Source of the DNA: Sulfuricurvum sp.
GTDB taxonomy: Bacteria; Campylobacterota; Campylobacteria; Campylobacterales; Sulfurimonadaceae
Length of the DNA: 64,000 bases
Assembly (NCBI RefSeq): GCF_028713855.1
Contig: NZ_JAQTNN010000001.1
Coordinates: 336,696 to 400,695 of the forward strand
Direction of reading: 5' to 3'
The notes beneath the pieces were generated by a model. That model worked only from the letters and a program-made list of their open reading frames with translations, did not search any database and was not told where the DNA came from. A program made the position numbers and the translations under genes. Positions 1,188 to 38,953 of this stretch are shown here, piece after piece (positions within the stretch are counted from its first letter, which is position 1; each line of letters starts with the position of its first letter).

Positions 1188-2193
1188 GGATTGCTACCCT
1201 TTTTTTTTCTCTTAGTGACATCGGAGTAGCTCGGTTTCGATGGGATTCGATTTCTGCACAAATAGATAAGGCGATTGATTCAGGGGACTCTCCTCCCAAA
1301 TCCAATCCGATAGGATTATGCAATCTCGGATCCATAAAAACTGTTTCACCCATTGTACTGAAAGAGTCGATGATAGTTCTCGTTCGCTTCTGCGGACCCA
1401 TAATACCGATGTAGGAAACCTCTGAATCAAGCAATGCTTTTAAATAAACGGCATCGCTGTTAAAATTGTGGCTCATAACGACAGCAGCATCGAAATCTCG
1501 TTCTAAAATCTTAGTAACCTCTTCACAGTCGTTTAACAAATGTGTTTCATCGGCGGAATGGATATGGGTAAGATTGGATGTTCTTGTATCACAGATTGAG
1601 GTTTGCCACCCAAGAGCATTTGCCATGGAGAGTAACGGTTCACTCCCCGGTCCTGCTCCTAAAATCAATAACCGATAAGGGGAATTGATCTTTTGATAAA
1701 TAAGGCGAAGGTGCGATTCTTCATCATAAAAGATCTCTTCTTTCCGCTCTTCGGATGAAAACCCATAAAAACCCTTTTGCTCCGTGGAACGGATCAGTGT
1801 TTTCTTGGTTCTCTTTAAAGCATACTCAAGCGCGATACCGATCGCACCGTAGTTTTGATTGTAATAAAACGGCTCCATCCAAAGTTTTATCAGTCCGTTG
1901 CATCCAACCCCTTTGCCCCAACTGTCCAATGTGTCATCTTTCATTCGCAAGTCATGGACAACATACTTTCCTTCGTGTTTTGAGAGGATATCTTGGGCGC
2001 AATGGACAATGTCCTCTTCAAAACACCCTCCGCTGACGACGCCGATAAATTTTCCGTCGGAATTCACCAGCATGGTCGCACCGCTTTTACGATAAACGGA
2101 ACCTTCCGTATCCAACACATTGATACAGACGATATCTTTTTTATCGCTTTTAGATTGTTGTAGAAAATTGATAAAATCTTTGTGAGCAAACAT
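1177..2193 (-). CDS. XdhC/CoxI family molybdenum hydroxylase maturation protein
   Basis: This 338-residue cytoplasmic protein has two parts. The N-terminal XdhC/CoxI domain (about residues 15-85) contains the TEGSVYRKSGATM and SGGCFEED motifs. A C-terminal Rossmann-type XdhC domain begins near LLILGAGPGSEPLL. XdhC proteins bind the sulfurated molybdenum cofactor and deliver it to xanthine-dehydrogenase-family apoenzymes. It lies 7 bases downstream of the molybdopterin subunit gene and overlaps the cytidylyltransferase-like gene, consistent with one operon for making and loading the enzyme. The length is typical of the two-domain form. Confidence 0.9.
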   Translation of the reverse strand: MFAHKDFINFLQQSKSDKKDIVCINVLDTEGSVYRKSGATMLVNSDGKFIGVVSGGCFEEDIVHCAQDILSKHEGKYVVHDLRMKDDTLDSWGKGVGCNGLIKLWMEPFYYNQNYGAIGIALEYALKRTKKTLIRSTEQKGFYGFSSEERKEEIFYDEESHLRLIYQKINSPYRLLILGAGPGSEPLLSMANALGWQTSICDTRTSNLTHIHSADETHLLNDCEEVTKILERDFDAAVVMSHNFNSDAVYLKALLDSEVSYIGIMGPQKRTRTIIDSFSTMGETVFMDPRLHNPIGLDLGGESPESIALSICAEIESHRNRATPMSLREKKRVAIHAN

Positions 2194-2200
2194 GATATGC

Positions 2201-4333: not shown

Positions 4334-4335
4334 AG

Positions 4336-4791
4336 TTAAGCTCCTGCATTTATTTTTTTAATAGCGTTTTTGATACGGTTATAGGTACCGCATCGACAAA
4401 TATTGCCATTCATCTCAGCTAAAATCTCTTCTTCGGTAGGATTGCTATTTGCCTTTAGCAATCCCGTCGCATTCATGATTTGTCCTGATTGGCAATAGCC
4501 GCATTGAGGGACATCTTCTTCAACCCAAGCCTCTTGTATTTTTTTAAGAAGAGGATCGGTTGTATTGGCAATTGTCATGATCTCTTTATCGCCGATCTCT
4601 TTTAAAAAGGTTGCACAGCTTCTGATTGCTTTCCCGTCTAATAAAACCGTACAGGCACCGCATTGTGCAGCGCCGCATCCATATTTGGTTCCGGTTAAAT
4701 TTAAGTACTCTCTGAGTACCCACAATAAAGGTGTATCCTCATCAACAGTAACATCATAGGTGGTACCGTCAATTTTTAATTTAGTGGTCAT
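4336..4791 (-). CDS. 2Fe-2S subunit of molybdenum hydroxylase (IorA-like)
   Basis: This 151-residue protein carries two 2Fe-2S clusters. The plant-ferredoxin-type motif GCGAAQCGACTVLLDG binds the first. The CGYCQSGQ and CRCGTY motifs in the helical C-terminal domain bind the second. It passes electrons from the molybdenum site of the partner encoded 2 bases downstream. It has no signal peptide of its own and would be co-exported through the Tat signal of the large subunit, as is usual in this family. It is the first gene of the operon, and its promoter box lies about 30 bases upstream. Confidence 0.93.
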   Translation of the reverse strand: MTTKLKIDGTTYDVTVDEDTPLLWVLREYLNLTGTKYGCGAAQCGACTVLLDGKAIRSCATFLKEIGDKEIMTIANTTDPLLKKIQEAWVEEDVPQCGYCQSGQIMNATGLLKANSNPTEEEILAEMNGNICRCGTYNRIKNAIKKINAGA

Positions 4792-4821: not shown

Positions 4822-4853
4822 AGTATATAGAATGTAAATAGCGGTGAAATAGC
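4822..4853 (-). promoter_or_regulatory. GCTAT-box promoter driving the molybdenum hydroxylase operon
   Basis: Read on the minus strand, GCTAT half-sites start 11 bp apart (plus-strand ATAGC at 4849-4853 and 4838-4842). The -10 hexamer TATACT (4827-4822) starts exactly 15 bp after the proximal half-site starts. The proximal half-site sits where a -35 element would be, as in PhoB-type activated promoters. The same 32-bp layout occurs at seven other places in this window. Confidence 0.75.
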
Positions 4854-4985
4854 GAAGAATTTCAAGTTTTTATCATAAATTCTAATTTGTTAATAAACAT
4901 TTATATAATTTTTTTGTATCTGATAAAGAAATGCTTTCATTAATATATTTTATAAGCATATTGGCGATTAAATTTAGCATATATC

Positions 4986-5017
4986 GCTATTTCAACGCTA
5001 TTTACATTCTATATACT
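4986..5017 (+). promoter_or_regulatory. GCTAT-box promoter of porin 1
   Basis: GCTAT half-sites lie at 4986-4990 and 4997-5001, and TATACT lies at 5012-5017. Spacing is identical to the other boxes (11 bp, then 15 bp). The leader to the porin ATG is about 80 bases, longer than at the other sites. Confidence 0.75.
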
Positions 5018-5103
5018 TATCCCACGATTTTAAATTGTATTAATAATACCTATATATGTAAGGTGCTATTTATAATGAAAATCAATAGATTGAAGGAGAT
5101 GAT

Positions 5104-6321
5104 ATGAAAAAAACAGTAGTGATGAGTCTGGCAGCAGCAGTATTACTTGGAGCAAATGCATTTGCAATTGATAATGTAAAGGTAAGCGGTGACGCTAAAC
5201 TTTACTACTACACGGATGATAAAAATGCAGGTGATCTTTTTAGTAAAACAACAAGTGCCGCAGATACTGCTCTTCGTCTTGGGGTAACCGGGGATCTTGC
5301 AAAACATATTTCTTTCGGTGTAACCGGATATGCGGTTAGTACGCTCGGTCTTGAAAATAATCTTGTTAGCAATACATGGTCAAGCGCTCACACAGCAAGC
5401 GGTCAGGGTGTCGCTGACGCAGCATGGTTGGGTGAACTTTGGATTGCCGGAACGTATGGCAATACGACTCTTAAAGCAGGACGTATGTTGCTCGATTCAC
5501 CGCTTTCATTTAGTGAAACGTGGTCTGTTGCTCCAAACAGTTATGAAGCTGTTGTTCTTCTCAACCAAGATCTTCCGGATACCACTTTGGTTGCTGTATA
5601 TGCAGGACATAGTAATGAAGTTGATGGTGATATTTCAGCTGTTCCCGGTATTGATAAAATTGTAGGTCCAAATGGGAAATTCGGTACGCATGGCGTAAGC
5701 GGTGCAAATGTATTCGGTCTTATCAACAACTCGTACAAACCGCTCACCGCGCAAGCATGGTACTACGATGTTGTGAGTGCTGCGGATGCTTTCTGGATAC
5801 AAGGCGATCTTAATAGCGATATGGTAAAAGGGCTAAAATTGGGTGCTCAATATACCGAAATTAGTCCAAAAGGTGTATACCCGAATACGAATGATTCTAA
5901 AGGGTATGCATTGAAGGTTGGATATGAAGGTATCGAAAATCTTAACGTATCTGCTGCCTATTCTGCCGTAGACAAAGACAGTGTCTTTAAAGTTGCTAAT
6001 CTTGCAACTAACAATGCAGTTTCTCAATCGAAATTGTATACGGAAGCATTTTGGAACTACGGTTATGTAGGTGCTCCTGATGCACAATCATGGAAGTTGA
6101 ATGCTGAATATAACGTGCAAGATATTGCTAAATTCGGAGCTTACTATACCAATGTAAGTATTGATAAAACCAATGTCGATATGCAAGAGATTGCATTGAG
6201 TGCAACCAAATCTTTTGGACCATTGGACACGACTTTGGCCTACGTCTCTACGGATGCGGATGACCAAAATAACGGTTCACAGTCTAACTCTATCCAAGTA
6301 TATTTGACTCTTAACTTCTAA
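5104..6321 (+). CDS. OprD-family outer membrane porin 1
   Basis: This 405-residue outer membrane protein starts with a typical Sec signal peptide (MKKTVVMSLAAAVLLGANAFA). It ends with an aromatic-rich final strand (VYLTLNF), the usual C-terminal signal for beta-barrel insertion. Repeated alternating strands and the Campylobacterales OprD-like pattern indicate an 18-strand substrate-specific porin. An AAGGAG ribosome-binding site precedes the ATG. Its promoter carries the alcohol-oxidation regulon box and is the mirror image of the molybdenum hydroxylase promoter, so it may admit a substrate or cofactor precursor of that pathway. A terminator follows at 6337. Confidence 0.9.
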   Translation: MKKTVVMSLAAAVLLGANAFAIDNVKVSGDAKLYYYTDDKNAGDLFSKTTSAADTALRLGVTGDLAKHISFGVTGYAVSTLGLENNLVSNTWSSAHTASGQGVADAAWLGELWIAGTYGNTTLKAGRMLLDSPLSFSETWSVAPNSYEAVVLLNQDLPDTTLVAVYAGHSNEVDGDISAVPGIDKIVGPNGKFGTHGVSGANVFGLINNSYKPLTAQAWYYDVVSAADAFWIQGDLNSDMVKGLKLGAQYTEISPKGVYPNTNDSKGYALKVGYEGIENLNVSAAYSAVDKDSVFKVANLATNNAVSQSKLYTEAFWNYGYVGAPDAQSWKLNAEYNVQDIAKFGAYYTNVSIDKTNVDMQEIALSATKSFGPLDTTLAYVSTDADDQNNGSQSNSIQVYLTLNF

Positions 6322-6336
6322 GAATCGTTATACACC

Positions 6337-6369
6337 GTTCATCCTTTCGGGGATGAACCCTCCTTTTTA
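6337..6369 (+). terminator. Intrinsic terminator after porin 1
   Basis: A perfect 8-bp stem, GTTCATCC (6337-6344) with GGATGAAC (6351-6358), closes a TTTCGG loop and is followed by CCTCCTTTTT. It lies 16 bases after the porin stop codon. Confidence 0.85.
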
Positions 6370-6434
6370 TGTAAAGTTTTGAACCTATAGTGAAGTTTCG
6401 TCGACGTCAATAAGGTAATGATGAGAAGAAGGGG

Positions 6435-6470
6435 AGAAAGAGTGGGTGCTTTCGGGTACTCCCTCTTTCT
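6435..6470. other. Strong hairpin of unknown role between the porin genes
   Basis: The arms 6435-6447 and 6458-6470 pair over 13 positions with one mismatch and one G-U, closing a short GC-containing loop. No clear U-tract follows on either strand. It lies past the porin 1 terminator and upstream of the porin 2 promoter, so neither transcript obviously uses it. It might be a second terminator, a decay barrier or part of a small RNA. Confidence 0.5.
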
Positions 6471-6519
6471 TCAGTAGCTCTAGTCAAGAAAATAATACTG
6501 CACATCTCCCCTTTAAACG

Positions 6520-6551
6520 GCTATATTAAAGCTATTCTAATTCAATATACT
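6520..6551 (+). promoter_or_regulatory. GCTAT-box promoter of porin 2
   Basis: GCTAT half-sites lie at 6520-6524 and 6531-6535, and TATACT lies at 6546-6551. The 11-bp and 15-bp spacings equal those of the other boxes. The porin ATG is 38 bases downstream of the -10. Confidence 0.78.
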
Positions 6552-6588
6552 TATATTCCAAACAATAATAAAATGTGGAGTTTTTATA

Positions 6589-7782
6589 ATGAATAAAACA
6601 GTTGTACTGAGTTTGGCTGCGGCCGCGGTCTTAAGTGCTTCGAGTCTGAATGGAGCCTTTGCAGAAGGAAAAGCCAGCGGTCAAATACGGATGGCTTATG
6701 TCACTCAAAACAACGATGTTGACACCGATACATACGGAACGTCAATCGGAGGTATTTTAAAATACGAAACGGCTCCTTGGAATGACATAAAACTCGGTGT
6801 CGGAGCTTATGTATCTCAAAAACTTCATTTTGCAACCGGAAACACGGATGAGGGACGAGCAAATCCTGATTTGTTTGGAGACAACATTTCGTCCTATGCT
6901 TATGTAGGCGAGGGATACATCGATTATAGTGCAGACGATATTACCTTACGCATAGGTCGTCAAAGGATCGATACTCCGTTTGCCGATAGCGATGATATCC
7001 GAATGCATCCGAATACGTTTGAATCAGCGATAGCGACGTACAAAGGAATTGACGATACAACACTTATCGGAGGCTATATCACACGATGGGCAGGATACGA
7101 TTCAGAAAATGATATCTCCAAGTTTAAAAAAATTGTTCCTGAGAGTAACGGTGCTGCTGTTTTCGGTATCTTGAATGAGAGTGTTGAACATCTCGAATTG
7201 CAAGGATGGTATTACGGTATCGATAAACTCACGGATATTTTTTATACTGACGCAAGCTACACAATTCCATTCAACAAAACCACTGGATTAGAATTTGTAG
7301 GACAAGGGATTAAATTTAAAGAAGAGAATGGTTCGGGCGTGGATGGTAATGTTTATGGAATCGGTGCAAATCTGACTATCGGTATGTTCACTCTCGGTAC
7401 TGCTTATAACGAAGCTTCGAATGAAGCAGGTAAATTTGTCATCAGCGGTTTGGGAAATGGAGCCTATCTGGTTGATACGGAAGAGATGAATCTGGATAAT
7501 TTTGAAGATATCAAAGCGTATATGTTCAGCGCAGAGCTGGATATGGAAGAAGCAGGGCTGGAAGGTTTGACATTGACTGCTATCTATGCAGGTTTTAAAA
7601 GTGCACCGGCAGATATGAAAGAAAAAGAGATTGATTTAATCGCCACATACGAGATTACTAAATCCCTTAGTGCCGAAGTAAACTATGCAATACTCAATGA
7701 CCAAAATAACAATACATCCGAAGACGGACTTTATAGCGGTGGGTATGATCGTTTTCTCGTTCGTGTGAACTATAACTTCTAA
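6589..7782 (+). CDS. OprD-family outer membrane porin 2
   Basis: This 397-residue outer membrane beta-barrel is homologous in layout to porin 1. It has a Sec signal peptide (MNKTVVLSLAAAAVLSASSL, cleaved near AFA-EG), alternating amphipathic strands, and a final strand ending VRVNYNF that fits Bam-dependent insertion. A GGAG ribosome-binding site precedes the ATG. It has its own copy of the regulon promoter box and ends 5 bases from the convergent SoxYZ-like gene. Two differently diverged porins under the same control suggest uptake of related solutes such as alcohols or chelated metals. That role is inference. Confidence 0.9.
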   Translation: MNKTVVLSLAAAAVLSASSLNGAFAEGKASGQIRMAYVTQNNDVDTDTYGTSIGGILKYETAPWNDIKLGVGAYVSQKLHFATGNTDEGRANPDLFGDNISSYAYVGEGYIDYSADDITLRIGRQRIDTPFADSDDIRMHPNTFESAIATYKGIDDTTLIGGYITRWAGYDSENDISKFKKIVPESNGAAVFGILNESVEHLELQGWYYGIDKLTDIFYTDASYTIPFNKTTGLEFVGQGIKFKEENGSGVDGNVYGIGANLTIGMFTLGTAYNEASNEAGKFVISGLGNGAYLVDTEEMNLDNFEDIKAYMFSAELDMEEAGLEGLTLTAIYAGFKSAPADMKEKEIDLIATYEITKSLSAEVNYAILNDQNNNTSEDGLYSGGYDRFLVRVNYNF

Positions 7783-7787
7783 CGAGG

Positions 7788-8540
7788 TTAGTCCTCTACT
7801 TTAGTGGAAATATGGTACTTATTCGCATCAGTGTCTTCTAAGTCGATCGTGTAGGTACCATTGCCACCCATCGTTTCAAAAATCATCGTCGGATTTTGAC
7901 TGATCGCTGAGGTTAGCTCCATACTCGCCAGCAGTTCATTGCTGCTATGGAGTTCAAGATGTTTGATGTAAAAAGGATTGGTTCCAAACATTAACCCTGT
8001 TTCCATGGGATGAAAGATAGAAAATTTTATGAGATAGCCTTTCTCTTGACGGACGGTGTGGCTTTTGTGTTTGCCCAAAAGAGGGGCAAATTTTTTACTC
8101 TCCTCCGGTGTACTGGCTGAACATCCTCCACCAAAGCTTTTGATGTTTGCACTGCCGATATGCCATAACCCGTTTGCATCCTCAACGAGTACCCGAATCG
8201 GTGTTTCTTGGGCAACACGGATACTAAAAGAGAATATGGCTTTGAGATTTAAAAGTTTTATATCCATAATTTCCGGAATAAGGTTTAAATCGGCGAATAC
8301 AATCATTCTTTTTGCATCTTTAATTTTGGAAGCATCTATAGATATGGGCACGTGAGCCGGATTGTCTGCAAATTTCGGGACATTTACTGTGATGTTTATA
8401 TCATCAAATGTGTAGTTTGTACTATGAAGTGTTTTTTGGAGCAGATCGTCAAAGGTTGGAGAATAAATCGGATTTTTTGCTTGTATATTTGCACTGAACA
8501 GGAGAAAAATGAGGAGATATTTATAGGGGTTTGAGGACAT
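7788..8540 (-). CDS. Quinoprotein-dehydrogenase-associated fused SoxYZ-like carrier
   Basis: The start chosen is the ATG at 8540, which has an AGGA ribosome-binding site and opens a signal peptide ending near SANIQA. The longer frame to 8627 would overlap the upstream gene. The product is 250 residues and periplasmic. An N-terminal SoxY-like part ends in SFGGGCSA, recalling the GGCGG carrier-cysteine tail of SoxY, and a C-terminal SoxZ-like part follows. Fused SoxYZ-like proteins are a known companion family of PQQ alcohol dehydrogenase clusters, although their role there is unsettled. It is the third gene of the pedF operon. No soxXAB genes are nearby, so thiosulfate oxidation is unlikely. 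Confidence 0.83.
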   Translation of the reverse strand: MSSNPYKYLLIFLLFSANIQAKNPIYSPTFDDLLQKTLHSTNYTFDDINITVNVPKFADNPAHVPISIDASKIKDAKRMIVFADLNLIPEIMDIKLLNLKAIFSFSIRVAQETPIRVLVEDANGLWHIGSANIKSFGGGCSASTPEESKKFAPLLGKHKSHTVRQEKGYLIKFSIFHPMETGLMFGTNPFYIKHLELHSSNELLASMELTSAISQNPTMIFETMGGNGTYTIDLEDTDANKYHISTKVED

Positions 8541-8550
8541 GAATTTTCCT

Positions 8551-9417
8551 TTAAGGTCCGTAAGAAATGGGTTTGGAATAGGTAACATGATAGGAATCGA
8601 ATATTTTTTGAAGGGTATTGTTTTCATACAGTTTTGTAATGACGTCGTCGATGTGATAGCTTAATTCACGAGCATCTGTTCGAGTTGCCAACCCTATATC
8701 CCAAATCGATTTGATTCCCAAAACCTCATTGGTCATATAATATTTATCCTGATTATTGTTGTAGTCAAGCAAAAACTCTAATTGAGATTTCAATCCTGCT
8801 AGGGCATCGATTTTCCCGGCTTTAAAATCTTTGACAGCATCTTGGAAGTTAGCGTAGCGTTTAACATTTTTTCTGAGTAATCCTCCGGTATTCATGGAGA
8901 GATGTTTATCCGGAAGGGTATCTAGTTCCACCCCTATGGTGTTATAGGCAAATACGCCCAACGTGTTAACCGTCGGTAAGATATCTTTATGGGTAACGAT
9001 AACCCATTTTTCTGCATGATACGGTGATTTTATGACCACCATATCGGTTCGGAGTGCACCGGTGCTGACATCGGTCTCTCGCATATAATTATAATCATAT
9101 GGAATTCTGAGCATGACATCCGCACGGGTTTTATGGACAGGATTTCCTTTCCATACTACATTTCTAAGATCACCATCCATATCTTCACCCGAATCGGTAA
9201 AGTACCATTTTGGCTTAACATTGAGGGATTCAGCAATATGTTTGCCGATCTCAACATCAATTCCTTTGGCTTCACCGTCTTCTATATACGAGTATGGCGG
9301 AAAGTCATTGTAAAGAGCAATGACGATTTCCCCACTGGCTTGTATATCCTCAATACTCCGTGCATAAGAGCACAGAGATATAAGTAGTAGAGTAATGATG
9401 ATCGTTAGAAATTTCAT
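8551..9417 (-). CDS. XoxJ/MoxJ-like periplasmic binding protein
   Basis: This 288-residue protein has a Sec signal peptide (MKFLTIIITLLLISLCSYA) and a family-3 solute-binding fold. It opens with the GEIVIALYNDFPPYSY region typical of amino-acid-binding-like proteins. It matches the quinoprotein-dehydrogenase-associated putative substrate-binding family (MoxJ/XoxJ), members of which are thought to help activate or assemble methanol-type dehydrogenases rather than import solutes. It lies 3 bases after pedF and 10 bases before the SoxYZ-like gene, and no cognate permease is adjacent, which fits an assembly role. Confidence 0.85.
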   Translation of the reverse strand: MKFLTIIITLLLISLCSYARSIEDIQASGEIVIALYNDFPPYSYIEDGEAKGIDVEIGKHIAESLNVKPKWYFTDSGEDMDGDLRNVVWKGNPVHKTRADVMLRIPYDYNYMRETDVSTGALRTDMVVIKSPYHAEKWVIVTHKDILPTVNTLGVFAYNTIGVELDTLPDKHLSMNTGGLLRKNVKRYANFQDAVKDFKAGKIDALAGLKSQLEFLLDYNNNQDKYYMTNEVLGIKSIWDIGLATRTDARELSYHIDDVITKLYENNTLQKIFDSYHVTYSKPISYGP

Positions 9418-9420
9418 TAT

Positions 9421-9834
9421 TTAATGGTCGATTTTAACTGAAAACAAATAAGCGCGGATTGCCCACATCGCTTCTTGATTAATGATTCCTTCGAATTTAG
9501 GCATATAGACATTACCGTTACGTACTGCTCCGCCACGGATTCTCTCCATAAACCATGCGTCTCCCTCTACGCCCGGGTCAAGATAGCGAAGATCCGGCGC
9601 GACACCGCCTGATACAACGTCCAATCCATGACAACGGGCACAGTTTTCGGCATACGCATGTTTACCGATCTCAATCGCTGTTTCATTTCCGACATACGGA
9701 TTTTTCTCCAACCAATCTTTTCCTAGAGGTGCCAAACCTTTAGTATCTACCGGTTGAGGGGTTACGTTTCCGTGACTCAATAATAATGTTGCTGATAGCA
9801 ATGCTATCACTCCAAGCGTATGAGATGTTTTCAT
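9421..9834 (-). CDS. pedF: Cytochrome c of the quinoprotein alcohol dehydrogenase (PedF type)
   Basis: This 137-residue periplasmic monohaem cytochrome c has a signal peptide ending near LLLSHG. Haem attaches at CARCH (Cys65, Cys68, His69), and a likely distal Met lies at VYMPKF (Met111). PedF/c550-type cytochromes accept electrons from PQQ-dependent ethanol dehydrogenases and pass them to a terminal oxidase. It is the first gene of a three-gene operon whose regulon-type promoter is divergent from the NitT/TauT-like ABC operon. The electron-acceptor role is known for the family; pairing with the dehydrogenase at 17117 is inferred from shared promoter boxes. Confidence 0.88.
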   Translation of the reverse strand: MKTSHTLGVIALLSATLLLSHGNVTPQPVDTKGLAPLGKDWLEKNPYVGNETAIEIGKHAYAENCARCHGLDVVSGGVAPDLRYLDPGVEGDAWFMERIRGGAVRNGNVYMPKFEGIINQEAMWAIRAYLFSVKIDH

Positions 9835-9867
9835 ACTAACTCCTTTTCTGATGTTTGTGATTTGGAA

Positions 9868-9899
9868 ATTATAAAGTATGAAAATAGCCTGATAATAGC
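9868..9899 (-). promoter_or_regulatory. GCTAT-box promoter of the pedF operon
   Basis: On the minus strand, GCTAT half-sites start 11 bp apart (plus-strand ATAGC at 9895-9899 and 9884-9888). A perfect TATAAT (9873-9868) starts 15 bp after the proximal half-site starts. It is 21 bp from the divergent box at 9921. Confidence 0.78.
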
Positions 9900-9920
9900 G
9901 TTTAAAAGGAAATTTTTACC

Positions 9921-9952
9921 GCTATATTCAAGCTATAAATCTGTACTAAAAT
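9921..9952 (+). promoter_or_regulatory. GCTAT-box promoter of the NitT/TauT-like ABC operon
   Basis: GCTAT half-sites lie at 9921-9925 and 9932-9936, and TAAAAT lies at 9947-9952, again with 11-bp and 15-bp spacing. Confidence 0.73.
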
Positions 9953-9987
9953 GATTTGGAAATATTATAGATGTAGGAGAATTATTT

Positions 9988-10956
9988 ATGAAAATTTTTG
10001 CTTTGCTGTTGCTCTCTTTATCTCTATTATATGGAAGCAACAATCAACTGAATGTGGGAGTGTTGGCGTATGGAACCGTCAACTGGGAATTGATGACTAT
10101 AAAGTCACTAGGACTGGATAAGAAGTATGGATTTGATCTTGAGATAAAAGAACTGGCATCTAAAGATGGCGTTGCTGTCGCTTTTCAAGCTGATAGCGTC
10201 GATGTTATCGTTAACGACTGGGTTTGGGTCAACCGACAAAACTACCCTAATTTCTCACTCTATTTCTATCCTTATTCCACAGGAACCGGAGGGATTTATA
10301 CCAATAATCCCCGTTATCGTACTCTTGGTGATTTAAAAGGTAAAAAACTGGGTGTTGCCGGAGGGGCGATGGATAAAAGCTGGTTGCTCTACAGAGCGTA
10401 TGCGCAACAAAAACTTGGGATTGATTTGTCCGGCTATGCAGAGATCGTCTTTGCCGCACCTCCGATTTTGAACGCTAAATTATCGGATGGCAGTTTAGAT
10501 GCGGTACTTAATTTTTGGCACTACAATGTACTGTTGGATGAAAAAGGGATGACCCCCATATCCTCTGTTCGGGAGGTTTTAGGAAGCTTCGGTATTAACA
10601 ATCCAGATATCCCCTTTACCGGATGGGTATTTAAGCGTTCATTTGCGGCAGAGAATAAAAATGTGATCAATGGTTTTTTACAAGCATCACAAGAAGCGAA
10701 TAAAATACTTAAACACAATGATGCGGTATGGGATACGTTAAGACCACATATGCATGTCAAAGACGATGTGGCTTTTGAAGCGTTAAAAAAAGGGTATCGT
10801 GACGGAATTCCCGATAAGTTCACCCAAGATGAGATAAAAGGAATTGAGAAAATATATACCATTTTAGAAAAAACCGGCGGTAAAAGTCTCGTCGGTGAGT
10901 CCAAACAGTTTAATAAAACGATGTTTTGGCCTTATACACCTAATACTGCGCGGTAA
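9988..10956 (+). CDS. ABC transporter substrate-binding protein (NitT/TauT/SsuA-like)
   Basis: This 322-residue periplasmic binding protein has a short signal peptide (MKIFALLLLSLSLLYG). It shows the type-2 periplasmic-binding pattern of the nitrate/sulfonate/taurine family, including VAFQADSVDVIV and LGDLKGKKLGVAGG. The true ligand is unknown. It heads a four-gene operon with permease, ATPase and a DUF411 protein, under the same promoter box as the quinoprotein genes. This suggests it imports something the alcohol oxidation system needs, such as a metal complex, cofactor precursor or sulfonated substrate. Sulfonate or nitrate utilisation genes are absent nearby. Confidence 0.85.
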   Translation: MKIFALLLLSLSLLYGSNNQLNVGVLAYGTVNWELMTIKSLGLDKKYGFDLEIKELASKDGVAVAFQADSVDVIVNDWVWVNRQNYPNFSLYFYPYSTGTGGIYTNNPRYRTLGDLKGKKLGVAGGAMDKSWLLYRAYAQQKLGIDLSGYAEIVFAAPPILNAKLSDGSLDAVLNFWHYNVLLDEKGMTPISSVREVLGSFGINNPDIPFTGWVFKRSFAAENKNVINGFLQASQEANKILKHNDAVWDTLRPHMHVKDDVAFEALKKGYRDGIPDKFTQDEIKGIEKIYTILEKTGGKSLVGESKQFNKTMFWPYTPNTAR

Positions 10957-10961
10957 TAGTG

Positions 10962-11702
10962 ATGCTCAATCTTCTTTATCTGCGTATGGGGTCTGTTTTA
11001 GTCTTGATTACACTTTGGCATATAACAGCATTGCTTGCTGATTCTCCTATGTTTCCATTGCCGTTAAATGTGTTGAATAGCTTCATGGAGCACATTTCAA
11101 ACGGAGAGCTTCTGCATCATTTGGGTATTACGTTATATCGTGTCACTATGATTTTTCTCATTGCCATGCCTTTGGGGATCGCTTTTGGTCTGCTGATGGG
11201 TAACTTCAAAAAAATCGATGCAGCATTAGATACACTCTTAGTATTGGGGCTTAATATGCCCGCACTTGTGGTTATTATGCTGTGCTATATCTGGTTTGGA
11301 CTGAGCGACGTCGCAGCGATCTTAGCCGTCGTTATCAACAAAGTACCAACCGTTATCGTCAATATCAGAGAAGGGGTCAAAGCCATCGATAAAAAACTGA
11401 TCGAAGTAGCCTACATCTATAAAGTATCACGATACAAGATGCTATTTACCTTCTATATCCCGCAACTCTACCCTTATATTATTGCAAGTGCGAGAAACGG
11501 TCTTTCGTTGATCTGGAAAATTGTCCTTGTTGTAGAGTTGTTGGGAAGAAGCGATGGAATTGGATTCCAACTTTCCATGTTTTTCCAGTTTTTTGATATC
11601 ACTTCGATATTGGCCTATTCATTTTCTTTCATTGTTATCATAATTTTGATTGAAAACTTTATTTTCAGACCTATTGATACACAACTATCGAAGTGGAGAT
11701 AA
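10962..11702 (+). CDS. ABC transporter permease (NitT/TauT-like)
   Basis: This inner-membrane permease of 246 residues has about six hydrophobic segments and a BPD-type loop (near VIVNIREGVKAIDKKLIEVA) that docks the ATPase. The ATG at 10962 is preferred; a GTG directly before it at 10959 could add one residue. It follows the binding-protein gene by 5 bases, and its end is just before the ATPase start. It resembles SsuC/TauC permeases. Substrate unknown. Confidence 0.88.
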   Translation: MLNLLYLRMGSVLVLITLWHITALLADSPMFPLPLNVLNSFMEHISNGELLHHLGITLYRVTMIFLIAMPLGIAFGLLMGNFKKIDAALDTLLVLGLNMPALVVIMLCYIWFGLSDVAAILAVVINKVPTVIVNIREGVKAIDKKLIEVAYIYKVSRYKMLFTFYIPQLYPYIIASARNGLSLIWKIVLVVELLGRSDGIGFQLSMFFQFFDITSILAYSFSFIVIIILIENFIFRPIDTQLSKWR

Positions 11703-11703
11703 T

Positions 11704-12408
11704 ATGCTGCACATTGATATCAGAAGTAAAAAGTATGCTGATCAAAATATACTTAAAAACATTCATTTTAGTCTCAAAGAAGGGGTATTCCTCTCTATTA
11801 TCGGCCCCTCCGGATGCGGCAAAACGACGCTGCTACGGCTTATCTCCTCTCTGGATAGCGATTTTGAGGGGTCGATCGATATCGAGACAAATTCCATCGG
11901 GATGATGTTTCAAGAGCCCAGACTTTTACCGTGGCTTACTGTCAGGGAAAATATCGCCGTTGTGGATAAAATCGGCGATCCGGAGGCAGTAGTTAAACTT
12001 TTGCGTATGGTGGGACTGGAACACACGCTGGATACTTACCCTAAAAATCTCTCCGGCGGAATGGCACGAAGAGTATCGCTTGTGAGAGCTTTTATCAACC
12101 GTCCCAAACTTATTTTGCTGGATGAGCCGTTTGTCTCTCTGGATAAACCTACTGCACTTGCTCTTCAAAATGATTTGATGCTCTTTTGCAAAAGTTTCAA
12201 TCCTGCAGTGATATTGGTTACACACGATCTCGATGAGGCTATTGCCCTTTCTCAAAAAATACTCTTTTTAGGAGGAGAAGTAACTGGAGAAATCATAACG
12301 CATGTCAATGATCATTACGGCTTTGATTCTCTTGAGCCGACACAAGTACTAACGATAAAAGAGAAAATTTTATCTCTGTATCCCAATATTTTAGAAGGAA
12401 AATTATGA
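11704..12408 (+). CDS. ABC transporter ATP-binding protein (NitT/TauT-like)
   Basis: The start is the ATG at 11704, one base after the permease stop, with GGAG upstream; an in-frame ATG at 11650 lies inside the permease gene and is rejected. The 234-residue ATPase shows Walker A (GPSGCGKTT), the Q-loop (MMFQEPRLLPW), the signature LSGGM, Walker B (LILLDEPFVSLD) and the H-loop (VTHDLDEA), so it should be active. It energises import through the preceding permease. Its stop overlaps the DUF411 gene start by 4 bases. Confidence 0.92.
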   Translation: MLHIDIRSKKYADQNILKNIHFSLKEGVFLSIIGPSGCGKTTLLRLISSLDSDFEGSIDIETNSIGMMFQEPRLLPWLTVRENIAVVDKIGDPEAVVKLLRMVGLEHTLDTYPKNLSGGMARRVSLVRAFINRPKLILLDEPFVSLDKPTALALQNDLMLFCKSFNPAVILVTHDLDEAIALSQKILFLGGEVTGEIITHVNDHYGFDSLEPTQVLTIKEKILSLYPNILEGKL

Positions 12409-12803
12409 AAAAAACACTCCTACTCCTCTCAATGCTTTCATTAGCAGATGCGGAAGATCTCAAAATGCAAATTTATAAACCTGTCACAAGTTCGTGTCCG
12501 GCATCATGGGTGTCAGATGTAGAGCTGACAATCGCAAAGCCGGAGATTACGTCTCTCACCGATGTAAAAAGTCTCAAAAGCAGTATCGGTATTCCGCGAG
12601 AACTTTATTCGTGCAACACCTCTATTTTGGGTGATTATGTTTTTGAGGGCAATGTTCCTCCTGCGGCTATTAAAAAGTTTATGAATGAAAAACCCGCAGG
12701 CGCAATCGGACTCAGCCTCCCTGCCAGCCAAAATGATGAGGCGGTAAAAAAGGTCTATATTATGTATGGTGACAAGACGTATAAGCTGTATGGAACCTAT
12801 TGA
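12405..12803 (+). CDS. DUF411-like periplasmic protein
   Basis: This 132-residue secreted protein has a signal peptide (MKKTLLLLSMLSLADA). It resembles DUF411 proteins: a Cys-containing start (SSCPASWVSDVE), a central SSIGIPRELYSCNTSILGDYVFEGNVPPAAIKKFM block and the AIGLSLPA region. Classical DUF411 members have a CxxC-like pair at the start, and here only one Cys remains. DUF411 genes are often near copper or other metal functions, which hints that the ABC system handles a metal. It is the last gene of the ABC operon and overlaps the convergent DUF302 gene by 7 bases. Confidence 0.7.
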   Translation: MKKTLLLLSMLSLADAEDLKMQIYKPVTSSCPASWVSDVELTIAKPEITSLTDVKSLKSSIGIPRELYSCNTSILGDYVFEGNVPPAAIKKFMNEKPAGAIGLSLPASQNDEAVKKVYIMYGDKTYKLYGTY

Positions 12804-13267
12804 TCCAAACCGGATGAAATGATATGCTCGATCATTTCATCCACTTTTTTCGGATCCGCTTGATCACTTAGTTTCGGTGTTTTTAGAAAAGAGACTGTAA
12901 CCTCCGAGCTATCTTTCGACTGAAAAATAACCAGCTTCAATGGGCAGTAGAGCAAAGTATCAATACTTTTATCCACCATCTGATAACTTACAGAGGGTTT
13001 ACAAAAACCTATGCTGATTGCATTTTGCAGAAGCGGTTGTTTTTCTAAACTTTTGGATACTGCTTCTAAGGCTTTTGCTATATTTAACTCAAATACGATG
13101 TTAAATGCATTGACTTGCAACTCATTGCTAATGCGTAATTGCACCTCATCAAACGATCTGTCGCTAACTCTATAGGAGATATATTCAGCTGTCTCCATGC
13201 GAATAGTCTTGGCATGGAGGACTCCTGTAAAAAAGAGACAGAGCAAAAAGATTATTTTCGTTTGCAT
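12797..13267 (-). CDS. DUF302-domain periplasmic protein
   Basis: This 156-residue secreted protein has a signal peptide ending near GVLHA. Its body fits DUF302: a short helix-strand region including NIVFELNIAKALE, then GFCKPSVSYQMV and a CPLKLVIFQ strand. The biochemical role of DUF302 is unknown; members occur near redox and metal genes. Its start overlaps the end of the PedA1-like gene by 16 bases, so the two are co-transcribed from the box at 14446. Its 3' end is reused as a terminator for the opposite operon. Confidence 0.7.
   Translation of the reverse strand: MQTKIIFLLCLFFTGVLHAKTIRMETAEYISYRVSDRSFDEVQLRISNELQVNAFNIVFELNIAKALEAVSKSLEKQPLLQNAISIGFCKPSVSYQMVDKSIDTLLYCPLKLVIFQSKDSSEVTVSFLKTPKLSDQADPKKVDEMIEHIISSGLDQ
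12812..12850 (+). terminator. Terminator of the ABC operon, inside the convergent DUF302 coding sequence
   Basis: A perfect 12-bp stem, GGATGAAATGAT (12812-12823) with ATCATTTCATCC (12831-12842), has a 7-base loop and is followed by ACTTTTTT. It lies 8 bases after the DUF411 stop but inside the last codons of the opposing gene, so those codons also serve as a terminator. Confidence 0.85.
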
Positions 13268-14415
13268 TTCATCTCTGATGCTGCGATACCCAGCGTATCT
13301 AAATCGGTTACCGGATCTAAAAAACCTACTTGCGGTGAGGTGGAGATCAGTGCATTTGGCTGAACCAGTGAAATCGGCATTCTCAGCTGACCGTTGTAGC
13401 TTCGGTAAGAGAGTTGTCGTCCCATGTAGGCTGCCAATTCAAACTCGTTTGAGCGGATATAGGCAATATTTGTTTTGACGTCACTCGTATTGGTATGCAT
13501 GATAGAGGTTACAATCGTACGAACCGCAACCCAAGCCGCAAAGTCTTCCGATTCCATACCTCGTGATGCATATTTTTCAAAGCGATCCTGCATCTGCGCC
13601 GCACCCCACTGCTCGATACTTTTATGCCATTCTACGGGAGTAAGACCTTGGGTTCCGGCGACAGGACGCGGGAGCCATGAATTAAAATAGACAACCTCTC
13701 CAAAATCTCCGTAATAATCGGCCGTTACAATCACATCATAATCTTCGCCTTGTGTAAATGCCGGAAGTTCATCTTCTGCTTTTCTGCGAATATCACTGTT
13801 ATTGTCCCACACTTTTTCTTTTACGATTTTGGCACCGAATTTTTTGGCGGCTCTTTTAATTGCATAGACTATATTTTTGTCTTTAATTGTTTGTCCTTCG
13901 ATTATAAATATTTTTTTGAAATTACGTTTCACCAAAAACTGCATCAACCCGTCATAAAGCATCGTATCATCCGCCATAGTATGCAAAAGATTCGAATTGC
14001 AGTAGACCATTCTCAGTCGAGGATTGCTCAAACCGGCATTGATCAATAAAACATTTTTACTTTTAGGATTGTTGAGAAGTTTGACGAAAAGGGGATATTG
14101 AACATTTAAGATTGCATAACGCCCACCTTTGTCTACATAACGTTCAAAAGCTTTTAACAAGGCTGTTTCATTCTCTGAAACTTCCGTTTGCAAGGTGTAA
14201 TGCTGATTCATAAACTGAGCTGTTTTTTCACTGTCTTCTACCGCTATTTTTGCCCCTTGCAGACCCAGATCAGCGGGCCTTTCTATGACATTTGAGAGGA
14301 CAGGAGGATGCTTTACTTTTTGGTCTAAATAGAGGATTTTCACTGATATATCCGCAGCATTGAGTGAAAGGGTCCAAAGCAGTGTCGTTATCAATAATCG
14401 TAATACAGTATGCAT
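13252..14415 (-). CDS. pedA1: PQQ-dehydrogenase-system ABC binding protein (PedA1 type)
   Basis: This 387-residue periplasmic protein has a signal peptide (MHTVLRLLITTLLWTLSLNA) and a Leu/Ile/Val-type binding-protein fold. Characteristic segments include ADLGLQGAKIAVEDSE and VTADYYGDFGEVVYFNSWLPRPVAGTQ. It fits the ABC substrate-binding family tied to PQQ alcohol dehydrogenase clusters. In Pseudomonas putida the PedA1A2BC system has been linked to growth with lanthanides. Here it is transcribed divergently from pedA2-B-C, from a promoter whose box overlaps the opposing one. The lanthanide role in this organism is inference. Confidence 0.85.
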   Translation of the reverse strand: MHTVLRLLITTLLWTLSLNAADISVKILYLDQKVKHPPVLSNVIERPADLGLQGAKIAVEDSEKTAQFMNQHYTLQTEVSENETALLKAFERYVDKGGRYAILNVQYPLFVKLLNNPKSKNVLLINAGLSNPRLRMVYCNSNLLHTMADDTMLYDGLMQFLVKRNFKKIFIIEGQTIKDKNIVYAIKRAAKKFGAKIVKEKVWDNNSDIRRKAEDELPAFTQGEDYDVIVTADYYGDFGEVVYFNSWLPRPVAGTQGLTPVEWHKSIEQWGAAQMQDRFEKYASRGMESEDFAAWVAVRTIVTSIMHTNTSDVKTNIAYIRSNEFELAAYMGRQLSYRSYNGQLRMPISLVQPNALISTSPQVGFLDPVTDLDTLGIAASEMKCKRK

Positions 14416-14445
14416 GTCTTTTCCTGTTAAAAGGGGGTGAAGAGA

Positions 14446-14477
14446 ATTATAGGAAAAGTAAATAGCGTGTATATAGC
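14446..14477 (-). promoter_or_regulatory. GCTAT-box promoter of pedA1
   Basis: Minus-strand GCTAT half-sites (plus ATAGC at 14473-14477 and 14462-14466) are 11 bp apart, and a perfect TATAAT (14451-14446) starts 15 bp after the proximal half-site starts. Its distal half-site overlaps that of the divergent pedA2 promoter within the sequence ATAGCTAT. Confidence 0.8.
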
Positions 14478-14507
14478 TATTTTCGAGCTATATACTTTTT
14501 GTATAAT
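14476..14507 (+). promoter_or_regulatory. GCTAT-box promoter of pedA2-pedB-pedC
   Basis: GCTAT half-sites lie at 14476-14480 and 14487-14491, and a perfect TATAAT lies at 14502-14507. The overlap of the two distal half-sites means occupancy of one promoter may affect the other. Confidence 0.8.
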
Positions 14508-14535
14508 TTTTTCAATTCACGCATAAGGAATTTTT

Positions 14536-15498
14536 ATGAAAAGAACAGTACTCTCTGCAGCTTTATTAGTGAGTGCATTAGCTCAAGCGGATACGGTTTT
14601 TATATCCAATGAAAAAGATAATACTATCTCTGTTATTGATTCAAAAACTCAGAAAGTAACCGATACGATACGTGTCGGACAAAGACCGCGCGGAATAGTC
14701 CTCGATAAGTCCAAAACCCAGCTGTATGTGTGTGCAAGTGATGATGATACGGTACAAATTTTAGATTTAAAAAGTAAGAAGATAATCGCAAATCTCCCAT
14801 CAGGAGAAGATCCGGAACAGTTTGCACTGCATCCGGAGGGACGAGAGCTTTATATTGCTAACGAAAACAATGCGATGGTGACTGTAGTCGATACGCAAAA
14901 GAGAAGTGTATTGAAACAGATTCCTGTGGGGTTGGAACCTGAAGGTATGGCGGTAAGCCCTGATGGAAAACTTGCTATCGCTACAACGGAAACATCCAAT
15001 TTCCTCCACTGGATTGACACCAAAACCAAAAAAATCGTACATACGACACTTGTCGACCAAAGACCAAGACATATAGAATTTACTAAAAGCGGTGATAAAG
15101 TTTGGGCATCTTCTGAAATAGGAGGAACCGTCATGGTGGTTGATACCGCTACGAAAAAGGCTATTGCGAAAATAAACTTTAAAATACCGGGTATATTTAA
15201 AGACCAGATTCAACCTGTCGGAATCAAACTTACCAGTGATGGAAAATACGCTTTTGTCGCACTGGGACCTGCAAATCATGTTGCTGTCATTGATACTGCA
15301 ACCTACAAAGTTATTAAATACCTTTTGGTCGGTAAACGAGTATGGCAACTGGCGTTTGCCGAGAATGAACAACAGCTTTACACTACCAACGGCGTTAGCG
15401 GCGATGTCTCCATAATCGATGTTAATGAACTTAAAGTGCTCAAAAGTATCAAAGTCGGCCGTTATCCTTGGGGCGTAGCGGTTATTCCGACGAACTAA
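14536..15498 (+). CDS. pedA2: PQQ-system YVTN beta-propeller protein (PedA2 type)
   Basis: This 320-residue periplasmic protein starts with a signal peptide (MKRTVLSAALLVSALAQA). It is built of about seven repeats of the YVTN type, seen as recurring units such as DTVFISNEKDNTISVID, ELYIANENNAMVTVVD and QLYTTNGVSGDVSIID. It matches the beta-propeller component associated with PQQ-dependent alcohol catabolism ABC systems. The propeller might present a ligand or contact the dehydrogenase; no catalytic motif is visible. It lies one base upstream of pedB. Confidence 0.88.
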   Translation: MKRTVLSAALLVSALAQADTVFISNEKDNTISVIDSKTQKVTDTIRVGQRPRGIVLDKSKTQLYVCASDDDTVQILDLKSKKIIANLPSGEDPEQFALHPEGRELYIANENNAMVTVVDTQKRSVLKQIPVGLEPEGMAVSPDGKLAIATTETSNFLHWIDTKTKKIVHTTLVDQRPRHIEFTKSGDKVWASSEIGGTVMVVDTATKKAIAKINFKIPGIFKDQIQPVGIKLTSDGKYAFVALGPANHVAVIDTATYKVIKYLLVGKRVWQLAFAENEQQLYTTNGVSGDVSIIDVNELKVLKSIKVGRYPWGVAVIPTN

Positions 15499-15499
15499 G

Positions 15500-16237
15500 A
15501 TGAAAATAACTATTTTAGAGCTTGAAAACGTATCGCACTCCTACGATAAGGAGATGGTTCTTAAAAAAGTTTCATTTTCTATCGAAGAAGCCTCTTTCTT
15601 CGTCCTGCTCGGATTAAACGGAGCAGGTAAATCGACTATATTCTCTCTTCTGACCAGACTCCTGAACCTTCAATCCGGCTCGATAAAAATCAACGGTTAC
15701 ATGATACAAAACTACAGCAAAGCGCTGAAAGATATCGGTATTGTATTTCAGGAACCGACCTTGGATCTGGATCTGACCGTCCGACAAAATCTCTACTACT
15801 ACGGCGCGTTAAAAGGGTTGAGTTTTAAAGAGACGATTGCCTCTATCAAAGATGAGCTTACTAATCTTGACCTCGATGAAAAACTGGACACAAAGGTGCA
15901 AAAATTAAACGGCGGACACAGACGTCGAGTTGAAATCGTACGCTCCCTTATTAATAAACCGAAACTCCTTTTGTTGGACGAAGCAACGGTCGGACTGGAT
16001 TTAAAAAGCCGCTTTGATATTCTGGATTATTTACGCCGAAAAGTTCAAAAAGGGGAAATATCCGTTTTATGGATTACCCATCTGTTTGATGAGGTTCAAG
16101 AGAGCGACTCTCTTGCGATTATCCATAAAGGAGAAATCCTTGCGACAGGTACAGCTGAATCAATTATCGCCGAATACAAGCAAGCGGACTTAACCCAAAC
16201 ATTCCGATATGTAACAAGGGAGAATCCTGATGCGTAA
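15500..16237 (+). CDS. pedB: PQQ-system ABC ATP-binding protein (PedB type)
   Basis: This 245-residue ATPase has Walker A (GLNGAGKST), a Q-loop in VFQEPTLDLDLT, Walker B (LLLLDEATVGLD) and an H-loop (WITHLFDE). The signature is LNGGH rather than LSGGQ, a variant that should be functional. It pairs with the ABC-2 type permease whose start overlaps its stop by 8 bases. The family is tied to PQQ alcohol dehydrogenase clusters. ABC-2 type partners are more often exporters, so the transport direction is open. Confidence 0.9.
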   Translation: MKITILELENVSHSYDKEMVLKKVSFSIEEASFFVLLGLNGAGKSTIFSLLTRLLNLQSGSIKINGYMIQNYSKALKDIGIVFQEPTLDLDLTVRQNLYYYGALKGLSFKETIASIKDELTNLDLDEKLDTKVQKLNGGHRRRVEIVRSLINKPKLLLLDEATVGLDLKSRFDILDYLRRKVQKGEISVLWITHLFDEVQESDSLAIIHKGEILATGTAESIIAEYKQADLTQTFRYVTRENPDA

Positions 16238-17015
16238 CTATTTCTATTGTGCCAAAGGGATCATTTATAAAGAGCTGCTGCGCTTTTTAAAAGAAAAAAG
16301 CCGATTTTTTTCGGCACTTGTTCGGCCTCTTTTGTGGCTTTTTATCTTTTCAGCAGGTTTTACGTCAGCATTGGGGTTAGCAATCATCCCCCCTTATGAG
16401 TCTTATATAACCTATGAAACGTATATTGTTCCCGGACTTGTGGGGATGATTTTACTTTTCAACGGTATGCAAAGCTCTTTAACCATGATTATTGATAAAG
16501 AGATGGGAAGTATGAAAATATTACTTACTTCTTATATAAATAGGAATTTTTTGCTGTTTTGCAAAATGTTTGCTACGGCCATTGTCTCTACGATACAAGC
16601 AATAACTTTTTTGATTGTTGCCTATTTCTACGGAATCGAGCTGAGTATTACCGGTGTATTGCTTACGATACCGATCATTTTATTTACCTCGATTATCCTT
16701 AATGCGTTTGCCCTCTTTATCTCATCCGTTATCAAACAGCTGGAAAATTTTGCGGCTATTATGAACTTTGTTATTTTTCCGATGTTCTTTTTGAGCTCGG
16801 CACTTTATCCATTATGGAAGATAAAAGATTCATCGCTTTTCTTATACACCGTCTGTTCATTCAATCCATTTACCTATATTGTCGAATCTATCCGTTTTAC
16901 GCTCTATTTAAAGTACGATTTGTCCACCTTTTATATTATTTTTTTCTATTTTATAGTGGCGCTAAGTCTCGCATTTATGGGATATAAGTCAAAAAAGGTT
17001 TTGAAAAAAAGTTAA
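16230..17015 (+). CDS. pedC: PQQ-system ABC-2 type permease (PedC type)
   Basis: This 261-residue inner-membrane protein has about six hydrophobic segments and the ABC-2 pattern, including RPLLWLFIFSAGF and a C-terminal SFNPFTYIVESIRF motif near the last helices. It is the membrane part of the PedB ATPase system and overlaps the ATPase gene. The dehydrogenase promoter starts 12 bases after its stop codon, so the dehydrogenase can be expressed separately from the transporter. Confidence 0.9.
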   Translation: MRNYFYCAKGIIYKELLRFLKEKSRFFSALVRPLLWLFIFSAGFTSALGLAIIPPYESYITYETYIVPGLVGMILLFNGMQSSLTMIIDKEMGSMKILLTSYINRNFLLFCKMFATAIVSTIQAITFLIVAYFYGIELSITGVLLTIPIILFTSIILNAFALFISSVIKQLENFAAIMNFVIFPMFFLSSALYPLWKIKDSSLFLYTVCSFNPFTYIVESIRFTLYLKYDLSTFYIIFFYFIVALSLAFMGYKSKKVLKKS

Positions 17016-17026
17016 AATTTAGCATC

Positions 17027-17058
17027 GCTAATTTCAGGCTATTTTTCTTATGTATACT
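17027..17058 (+). promoter_or_regulatory. GCTAT-box promoter of the quinoprotein alcohol dehydrogenase
   Basis: The half-sites are GCTAA at 17027-17031 (one mismatch) and GCTAT at 17038-17042, with TATACT at 17053-17058. Spacing is identical to the other seven boxes. Confidence 0.78.
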
Positions 17059-17116: not shown

Positions 17117-18901
17117 ATGACAAAGAGTAAAATGCTAACTACTAAGATAGCAGTAACGCTTGCTGCCTTTCTTATTGGTTGTGCCGCTCAGGGCACAGGT
17201 CTTACGAATAAAGGTGGGGTGAAAGCTTCATTTGCACCGGTAACATATGATGATATCCTTAACGATGATAAAACCGTAGGGGATGTTGTAACGTATGGTT
17301 TAGGACAAAAGGGACAACGTTTCTCGACGTTGAAACAAATCAATAAAAAGAGCATTAAAGATCTTGTTCCAGTATGGAATTTCAGCTTCGGCGGTGAAAA
17401 AATGCGCGGGCAAGAGTCACAACCGTTGGTTAAAGACGGTGTTATGTATGTAACAGCATCGTATTCACGTTTATACGCTCTGGATATTGCAACCGGACGT
17501 GAAATCTGGAATTATGAAGCAAAACTTCCGGATGCGATCTTACCTTGCTGTGACGTAATCAACCGAGGGGCAGCTCTTATTGATAACCTCGTAATCTTCG
17601 GAACATTGGACGCTAAAATTGTAGCACTTGATCGCGCTACCGGTAAAGTGGTATGGAAAAAAACCATTGCAGATTATAAAGACGGTTATTCATTTACGGC
17701 AGCACCATTGATCGTTAAAGGTCTTGTTGTAACCGGTGTATCGGGTGGGGAATTCGGTATTGTCGGTAGAGTTGAAGCCCGTGATCCAAAAACCGGTGAG
17801 ATTGTGTGGAGCAGACCAACGGTTGAGGGACACATGGGATACCTTAACGGTAAAGAAAATGGTATCAGCGGAACCTTAAACGCAACATGGGAAGGCGATC
17901 AGTGGCAACACGGCGGAGCCGCTCCGTGGAATGGTGTAACGTATGATCCGGAAACCGATCTCATTTATGTACCTACGGGGAACCCATCTCCATGGAACTC
18001 ACATGAACGAGCCGGAAACAACTTCTATTCAGCATCTCGTGTCGCGATCAATCCTGACACCGGTAAAATCGTTTGGCATTACCAAACAACACCGAATGAC
18101 GGATGGGATTTTGACGGTATGTCAGAACTCGTATTGTTTGATTATAAAGATGCTTCAGGAAAAACGGTAAAAGCCGGTGCAACTGCCGATAAAAACGGTT
18201 TCTTCTATGTCTTAAATCGTGAAAACGGTAAGTTCATCAGTGCATCGCCGTTTGTTGACAAAATTTCATGGGCTAAAGAGATTGATAAAGACGGTAAACC
18301 TGTTGTTATTGAAGAAAATCGTCCCGGTGTACCGGTCAATGGTGAAAAAGGTAAAACCGTGTTCACTGTTCCATCGTTCTTAGGTGGTAAAAACTGGAAT
18401 CCAATGGCGTATTCACAAAATACAGGTCTCTTCTATGTCCCGGCAAATGAGTGGGGTATGGACATGTGGAATCAGCCAGTAACGTATAAAAAAGGTGCCG
18501 CGTATATGGGCGCCGGTTTTACCATCAAACCTGTCTATGAAGATCATATCGGTGCGCTTAAAGCAATCGATCCTAAAACCGGCAAAATCAAATGGAAATA
18601 CGAGAATAAAGCTCCGTTATGGGGTGGAGTACTTGCAACAGCCGGCGGTATCGTATTTACAGGAACACCTGAAGGTGAACTTCTTGGTTTAGATGATGCG
18701 ACTGGTAAGGTTCTCTATAAATTCCAAGTGGGTTCAGGAATCGTCGGATCACCGATTACGTGGGAACAAGACGGCGAACAATATGTTTCTGTAGTATCAG
18801 GATGGGGCGGAGCTGTTCCATTGTGGGGCGGAGAAGTTGCGAAATCCATTAAACACATTTCACAAGGTGGAATGGTTCACGTATTTAAACTACACAAATA
18901 A
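17117..18901 (+). CDS. PQQ-dependent alcohol dehydrogenase with lanthanide-type active site (XoxF/PedH-like)
   Basis: This 594-residue quinoprotein oxidises primary alcohols to aldehydes in the periplasm. Visible features are the adjacent-cysteine ring CC at 144-145, metal ligands Glu212 (SGGEFG) and Asn289 (TGNPSPWN), catalytic Asp331 in NDGWDFDG, and Asp333 two residues later. Asp at that place marks lanthanide-dependent enzymes; Ca-dependent MxaF or ExaA types carry Ala or Ser. Several tryptophan-docking repeats (such as TGKIVW and TGKIKW) are present. The N-terminus has a lipobox-like LIGC at residues 19-22, unusual because family members are normally soluble. Methanol versus ethanol preference cannot be told. 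pqqA follows 16 bases after. Confidence 0.93.
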
Positions 18902-35341: not shown

Positions 35342-35342
35342 C

Positions 35343-38071: not shown

Positions 38072-38124
38072 TTTATTATTATTTGTTTCAGTATAATTAA
38101 GTCAACAAAAAAGGAAATTTCAAA

Positions 38125-38904: not shown

Positions 38905-38953
38905 TCTTTAGTATTGTATTATTTACTAAATTTAAACATTAGGATATATTGAT

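Follow-up and report, generated by a model that had tools for sequence, protein, structure and literature searches.

Why should eight putative promoters, spread over both strands of one island for alcohol oxidation, be built to a single plan, and what would read it? The window, by which is meant the whole 64,000-nucleotide stretch of a Sulfuricurvum contig that was analysed, contains a PQQ-dependent alcohol dehydrogenase (ADH) gene of the methanol/ethanol family (17117..18901, plus strand; TIGR03075, 776 bits) and, in the same island, genes for PQQ-associated beta-propeller and ABC proteins (TIGR03866, TIGR03863, TIGR03864, TIGR03861), a cytochrome c, an NMT1-like ABC operon, two porins and a Fer2/MoCo aldehyde-oxidoreductase-like operon. 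Right behind the ADH gene, at about 18918-18992, is a PqqA-like peptide, MKWEKPSFTDNRFGFEVTMYICHE. The island also holds pqqB, C, D and E, with pqqC called by homology and position; the pqq genes are followed by a peptidase-like gene and then by the genes for a FIST-domain sensor histidine kinase (23678..25582, plus strand; PF08495, PF10442, PF02518), the proposed sensor, and an OmpR/PhoB-type response regulator (25579..26238, plus strand; PF00072 with PF00486), the proposed activator. Elsewhere in the window, 30036-40842 is occupied by a run of type II secretion or pseudopilin-like genes, judged from translations only.

The double GCTAT site

The preliminary description of this DNA had claimed eight copies of an invariant layout, two GCTAT half-sites followed at a constant distance by a -10 hexamer. 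All eight are present, though ‘invariant’ goes a little too far, as seven match GCTATN6GCTATN10TANNNT exactly and the eighth does not. Box 1 (4822..4853, minus strand) is 5′ of the Fer2/MoCo operon (4791..591), and its orthologue is kept in G035, G011 and G002, where that operon sits elsewhere in the island, adjoining the regulator genes and not the island's left end, with the box still directly 5′. Boxes 2 (4986..5017, plus) and 3 (6520..6551, plus) precede a porin gene (5104-6321) and an OprD-type porin gene (6589-7782), and both are kept in all five ADH-positive genomes of the genus, the former at 86-87 bp. Box 4 (9868..9899, minus), kept in 13 genomes of two families, is 5′ of a cytochrome c gene (9834..9421) and SBP3/SoxYZ-like genes, and its divergent neighbour, box 5 (9921..9952, plus), kept in 11 genomes, is 5′ of the NMT1-like operon (9988-12803). 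A second divergent pair comprises box 6 (14446..14477, minus), before a PQQ-associated ABC substrate-binding gene (14415..13252) and kept in 11 genomes with a twelfth at one mismatch, and box 7 (14476..14507, plus), before the beta-propeller/ABC operon (14536-17015) and likewise conserved in orthologous islands. The exception is box 8 (17027..17058, plus), 5′ of the ADH gene and pqqA, whose first half-site is GCTAA, giving one mismatch to the strict pattern and none to the relaxed one; it is found, with 0 or 1 mismatch, in every ADH-positive genome with a readable ADH promoter. Because of its position just after the ADH gene, the PqqA-like peptide is probably within the box 8 transcript. The fixed core across the boxes is thus GCTA-N7-GCTAT-N10-TANNNT, with T or A at position 5.

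How rigid is the geometry? Over 580 kb of sequence from the island and its related loci, a GCTA-GCTA spacing of 11 dominates (n=127, other spacings reaching about 2-31), with a local excess at 22 and 33, and TANNNT begins exactly 10 bp after the repeat in 92 of 110 distinct repeats. A TTGACA-like -35 is absent at any usual spacer (mean match 2.55 of 6 or less). Counted from a -10 at -12 to -7, the two half-sites would begin near -38 and -27. In PhoB class-II promoters the activator replaces the -35 element, and the boxes share this feature, being in its place at a fixed distance from the -10. Pho-box promoters also have two direct repeats 11 bp apart, but differ in half-site (GCTAT in the island) and in physiological system. 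Two half-sites one turn apart and fixed to the -10 match what an OmpR/PhoB-type dimer substituting for the -35 contact would need.

Some relatives carry longer arrays. Four GCTAT-like repeats with an 11-bp period precede exaC in several Arcobacteraceae, and at L173:8621-8696 and L219:15299-15374 a porin gene has six tandem half-sites, strictly in 11-bp register, the last ending 10 bp short of its -10; except in G392, the extended arrays are in register. A third upstream half-site was sought in the window boxes and is absent, such repeats being confined to some Arcobacteraceae promoters. Between the cytochrome and NMT1 boxes (window 9868-9952) the gap is 21 bp in 10 genomes and 22 in one, constant over 11 genomes of two families despite changed intervening sequence. 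In the genus of the window the SBP and beta-propeller boxes (14446-14507) have a 2-bp overlap; in Arcobacteraceae 9-13 bp separate them.

Distribution in the genome and among relatives

Pattern searches of the whole 2.81 Mb genome (G000) gave nine exact matches, seven of them inside the island, and with the relaxed pattern 10 against 1 for a reversed-pattern control. The eighth exact match (C5:25563) is directly 5′ of an off-island gene for an ExaC-type acetaldehyde dehydrogenase (NF050026, 8e-249, slightly below the curated cut-off; a DUF779 gene is behind it), the next pathway enzyme after alcohol dehydrogenase. The ninth (C8:83030; L137:5031-5429) precedes a small gene of an unannotated family and is shared by many congeners, whether or not they have the island, and this box looks like the acetate-type box dealt with below. 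Frequent matches unrelated to these genes had been named as grounds for rejecting the idea; with eight of the nine exact ones at alcohol- or aldehyde-oxidation genes, this is not what was seen.

ADH is present in few congeners only. Those that have it carry 8-12 relaxed matches per genome; for the rest the count is mostly 0-2, close to what the reversed control gives. The Arcobacteraceae enzymes found in a phylum-wide search are 58-78% identical, and in four congeners and nine Arcobacteraceae genomes a box of the form GCTA(T)-N6-GCTAT-N10-TANNNT stands 5′ of the operon heads of the orthologous island, counts which, as the genomes are related, are not independent events. When boxes were tabulated gene by genome, 75 of the 76 were at the operon heads Fer2, porin1, porin2, cytochrome, NMT1, SBP, beta-propeller, ADH and ExaC. 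Internal and downstream genes (MoCo, SoxYZ, SBP3, ABC, pqqB/C/E, the kinase and regulator genes and others) had one in total, 5′ of DUF302 in the rearranged island of G464. Where an operon head lacks an exact box, it mostly has one with a single mismatch, and several gaps in the table are cut loci or such one-mismatch boxes. In that table neither the kinase and regulator genes nor pqqB-E have a box, and as the kinase and regulator genes lack one of their own, there is no sign of autoregulation.

A separate arrangement, found in one of the 387 genomes of the phylum sample, is that at L174:1624-7374 of Arcobacter caeni, where a divergent box pair (6547-/6577+) precedes both another pqqC-like gene (above cut-off for TIGR02111) and an operon. 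The operon comprises another radical SAM gene of pqqE type (above cut-off for TIGR02109), a class IV aminotransferase gene and three genes of the U32 family, which have a weak, below cut-off resemblance to oxygen-independent hydroxylases of the UbiU/UbiV type. Possibly these genes constitute an oxygen-independent PQQ route.

A candidate switch

What might bind the boxes? The layout had suggested a single activator with the geometry of PhoB/OmpR, seated over the -35 region, and the 11-bp repeats, the lack of a -35 motif and an OmpR-type regulator in the island itself, whose orthologues travel with the boxes, support this. The regulator has a receiver domain (PF00072, 2.7e-25) and a C-terminal winged-helix Trans_reg_C domain (PF00486, 3.6e-09); the closest solved chains are of the OmpR family, 1kgs, BasR and PhoP among them, and the phospho-acceptor Asp (LLLLDINVPG) and conserved Lys (YLKKPF) of the receiver are present in translation and alignment. 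Orthologues of the FIST kinase and regulator adjoin the island in 13 genomes, which are all the PQQ-positive ones with a readable stretch. In G029 the regulator stretch is masked; that genome is outside the count of 13 and, for the same reason, was dropped as a counter-example lacking the regulator. In G033, whose genome is 89% complete and fragmented, the Fer2 box pair is present and a regulator match is absent at E 1e-40.

The pair also occurs without the island, beside ExaC-type (G015, G097, G130) or Mo-type (G109, G139) aldehyde enzymes, and in four of these five genomes a box with 0 or 1 mismatch precedes the aldehyde enzyme. Upstream of exaC in G130 there is no good box (the best has two mismatches), although the FIST pair is present. 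The FIST kinase and its OmpR/PhoB-type partner (23678-26238) are very probably the switch, and the boxes its class-II-like activator sites.

The eight boxes would then be the operator-promoters of a single regulon serving the oxidation of alcohols and aldehydes in the periplasm. The cytoplasmic FIST-domain kinase would sense a signal linked to alcohol or aldehyde turnover and phosphorylate the partner regulator, which, as a head-to-tail dimer, would occupy the two GCTAT sequences at their spacing of one helical turn (11 bp). So placed, the regulator would stand in for the -35 element and recruit RNA polymerase to the fixed -10, TATAAT or TATACT, the start sites being predicted from that hexamer. 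The same regulator would activate the off-island exaC as well, so that ethanol to acetaldehyde to acetate would be controlled as one unit.

Alternative readings

Could the shared layout have come about by chance, or follow from the AT-richness of core promoters? TANNNT by itself is common in a genome of 41% G+C, yet the exact full pattern occurs seven times in the window against 0.00 expected from 100 dinucleotide shuffles. Without the -10, GCTATN6GCTAT is likewise found seven times (0.12 expected from shuffles), at the same seven sites, so that no such repeat in the window departs from the one -10 distance. With a PWM trained on the eight window boxes and eight Arcobacter caeni sites, the former score 32.7-39.0, high by construction, and the next best position in the 64 kb scores 11.6. 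Together with the retention of boxes at orthologous genes across two families, these counts and scores rule out an artefact of that kind for practical purposes. Might the sites nevertheless be real but negative in effect, the regulator covering the -35 region and blocking RNA polymerase until alcohol is present? The boxes overlap that region, where repressors bind too, but no -35 motif is left for sigma to use unaided, the fixed spacing to the -10 is that expected of an activator in contact with RNA polymerase, and an OmpR-type regulator of Sulfurospirillum at CTATW sites overlapping the -35 has been argued to activate (PMC7755780), all of which makes repression very improbable.

A less easily dismissed alternative is that the boxes are read mainly by another regulator, or by two, with the island part of a general acetate or C2 regulon. 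A paralogous pair, regulator and transmembrane kinase, lies immediately ahead of porin-DUF485-ActP genes (acetate uptake), and is near acs in one genome. The window's own genome has such a cluster in C8 (L138:574-5914; transmembrane kinase, regulator, OprD porin, DUF485 and ActP), with a degenerate box, GCTACGTTTTTGCTACGTTTCGTTTTCATAAT; such clusters are found widely across the family, and this one is probably a switch for acetate uptake. Its regulator (G000:C8:126038) and that of the island are 61% identical with nearly equal recognition helices (DNATIRAEVSRLK vs DNATIRAELNRIK), and the boxes before porin-DUF485-ActP, of the form GCTAYRTTCWTGCTAT, are also GCTA-N7-GCTAT-N10. Set against this, the paralogue is found in most congeners that have no island boxes, the pair adjoining both island and exaC is the FIST pair, and boxes of the island type have T at position 11 in 3 of 76 cases, those of the acetate type in 10 of 13 (Fisher p 1.4e-8, an optimistic value as the sequences are related). 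Position 11 was rejected as a strict discriminator between FIST and transmembrane types, as the boxes of G097, G109 and G139 have T despite a FIST-type regulator. Control chiefly from the acetate pair is thus unlikely, with the FIST pair the preferred reader, though cross-talk or shared control is possible since the paralogous regulator adjoins an almost identical box. In the tree the regulators linked to FIST kinases group as a single clade (support 96/90) beside those paired with transmembrane kinases, and between the two types the kinase domains share about 50% identity; we infer that the FIST pair arose by duplication, with a FIST domain replacing the membrane sensor.

Known systems compared

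The closest precedent is PceP (RR2 of TCS2) of Sulfurospirillum multivorans, an OmpR-family regulator of the PCE-respiration regulon which binds CTATW repeats overlapping the -35 (PMC7755780). It is from the same bacterial order and controls several operons of one island. Its sites have three CTATW copies with 6-nt gaps, an 11-bp period like that of the island boxes, overlapping the -35 box. The PceP consensus, CTATW-N17-CTATW, is for organohalide respiration, whereas in the island GCTAT-N6-GCTAT stands at a single fixed distance from the -10; with two repeats, and generally without a third upstream, the island boxes do not conform to the N17 form. Both response regulators near the reductive dehalogenase genes of G109, one of them putatively PceP, fall far outside the clade of the window regulator. 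The statement in the preliminary description that no such box was known for the pathway stands as regards alcohol oxidation in Campylobacterota, for which none was found described in the open-access papers searched, but is to be qualified by these direct repeats of Sulfurospirillum. Direct repeats 11 bp apart (a 7-bp motif with a 4-bp spacer) are also bound by PhoP of M. tuberculosis (PMC4832192).

The Pseudomonas ped/exa cluster is of like content (PQQ-ADH, cytochrome, ABC and pqq genes) and is controlled by LuxR-type AgmR/ErbR and PedR2/ExaE (PMC12997753), in contrast to the OmpR-type regulator neighbouring the island. It encodes a NosP-type nitric-oxide-sensing protein resembling the FIST half of the window kinase (a weak NCBIfam match). 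None of 78 non-campylobacterote ADH loci has a box or a FIST-kinase homologue, though their 61% G+C alone makes the box rarer. For the paralogous pair the parallel is the CrbS/CrbR acetate switch with its ACTU motif, also two-component control of acs/actP (PMC5715377); CrbR, however, is LuxR-type and depends on an imperfect inverted repeat, while the acetate-type pair in these genomes is OmpR-type with direct repeats.

Wider meaning

How did the island come under such uniform control? A tentative scenario, which to our mind is slightly more apt to fail than to hold, is that a mobile PQQ island in Campylobacterota was taken over wholesale by a home-grown OmpR-type system, a duplicate of the acetate pair that gained a FIST sensor, with identical direct-repeat promoters on every operon, the number of half-sites (two, four or six) tuning output and the phasing of divergent pairs fixed. 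The acetate paralogue has a box of its own and provides a tidy example of two-component systems that were duplicated and may differ in a single position of the sites they use. One metabolic island would have a different class of regulator in another phylum. For ethanol and aldehyde oxidation in Campylobacterota a predicted sensor, regulator, operator and gene list can now be named, and the signal of the FIST sensor is now open to direct testing.
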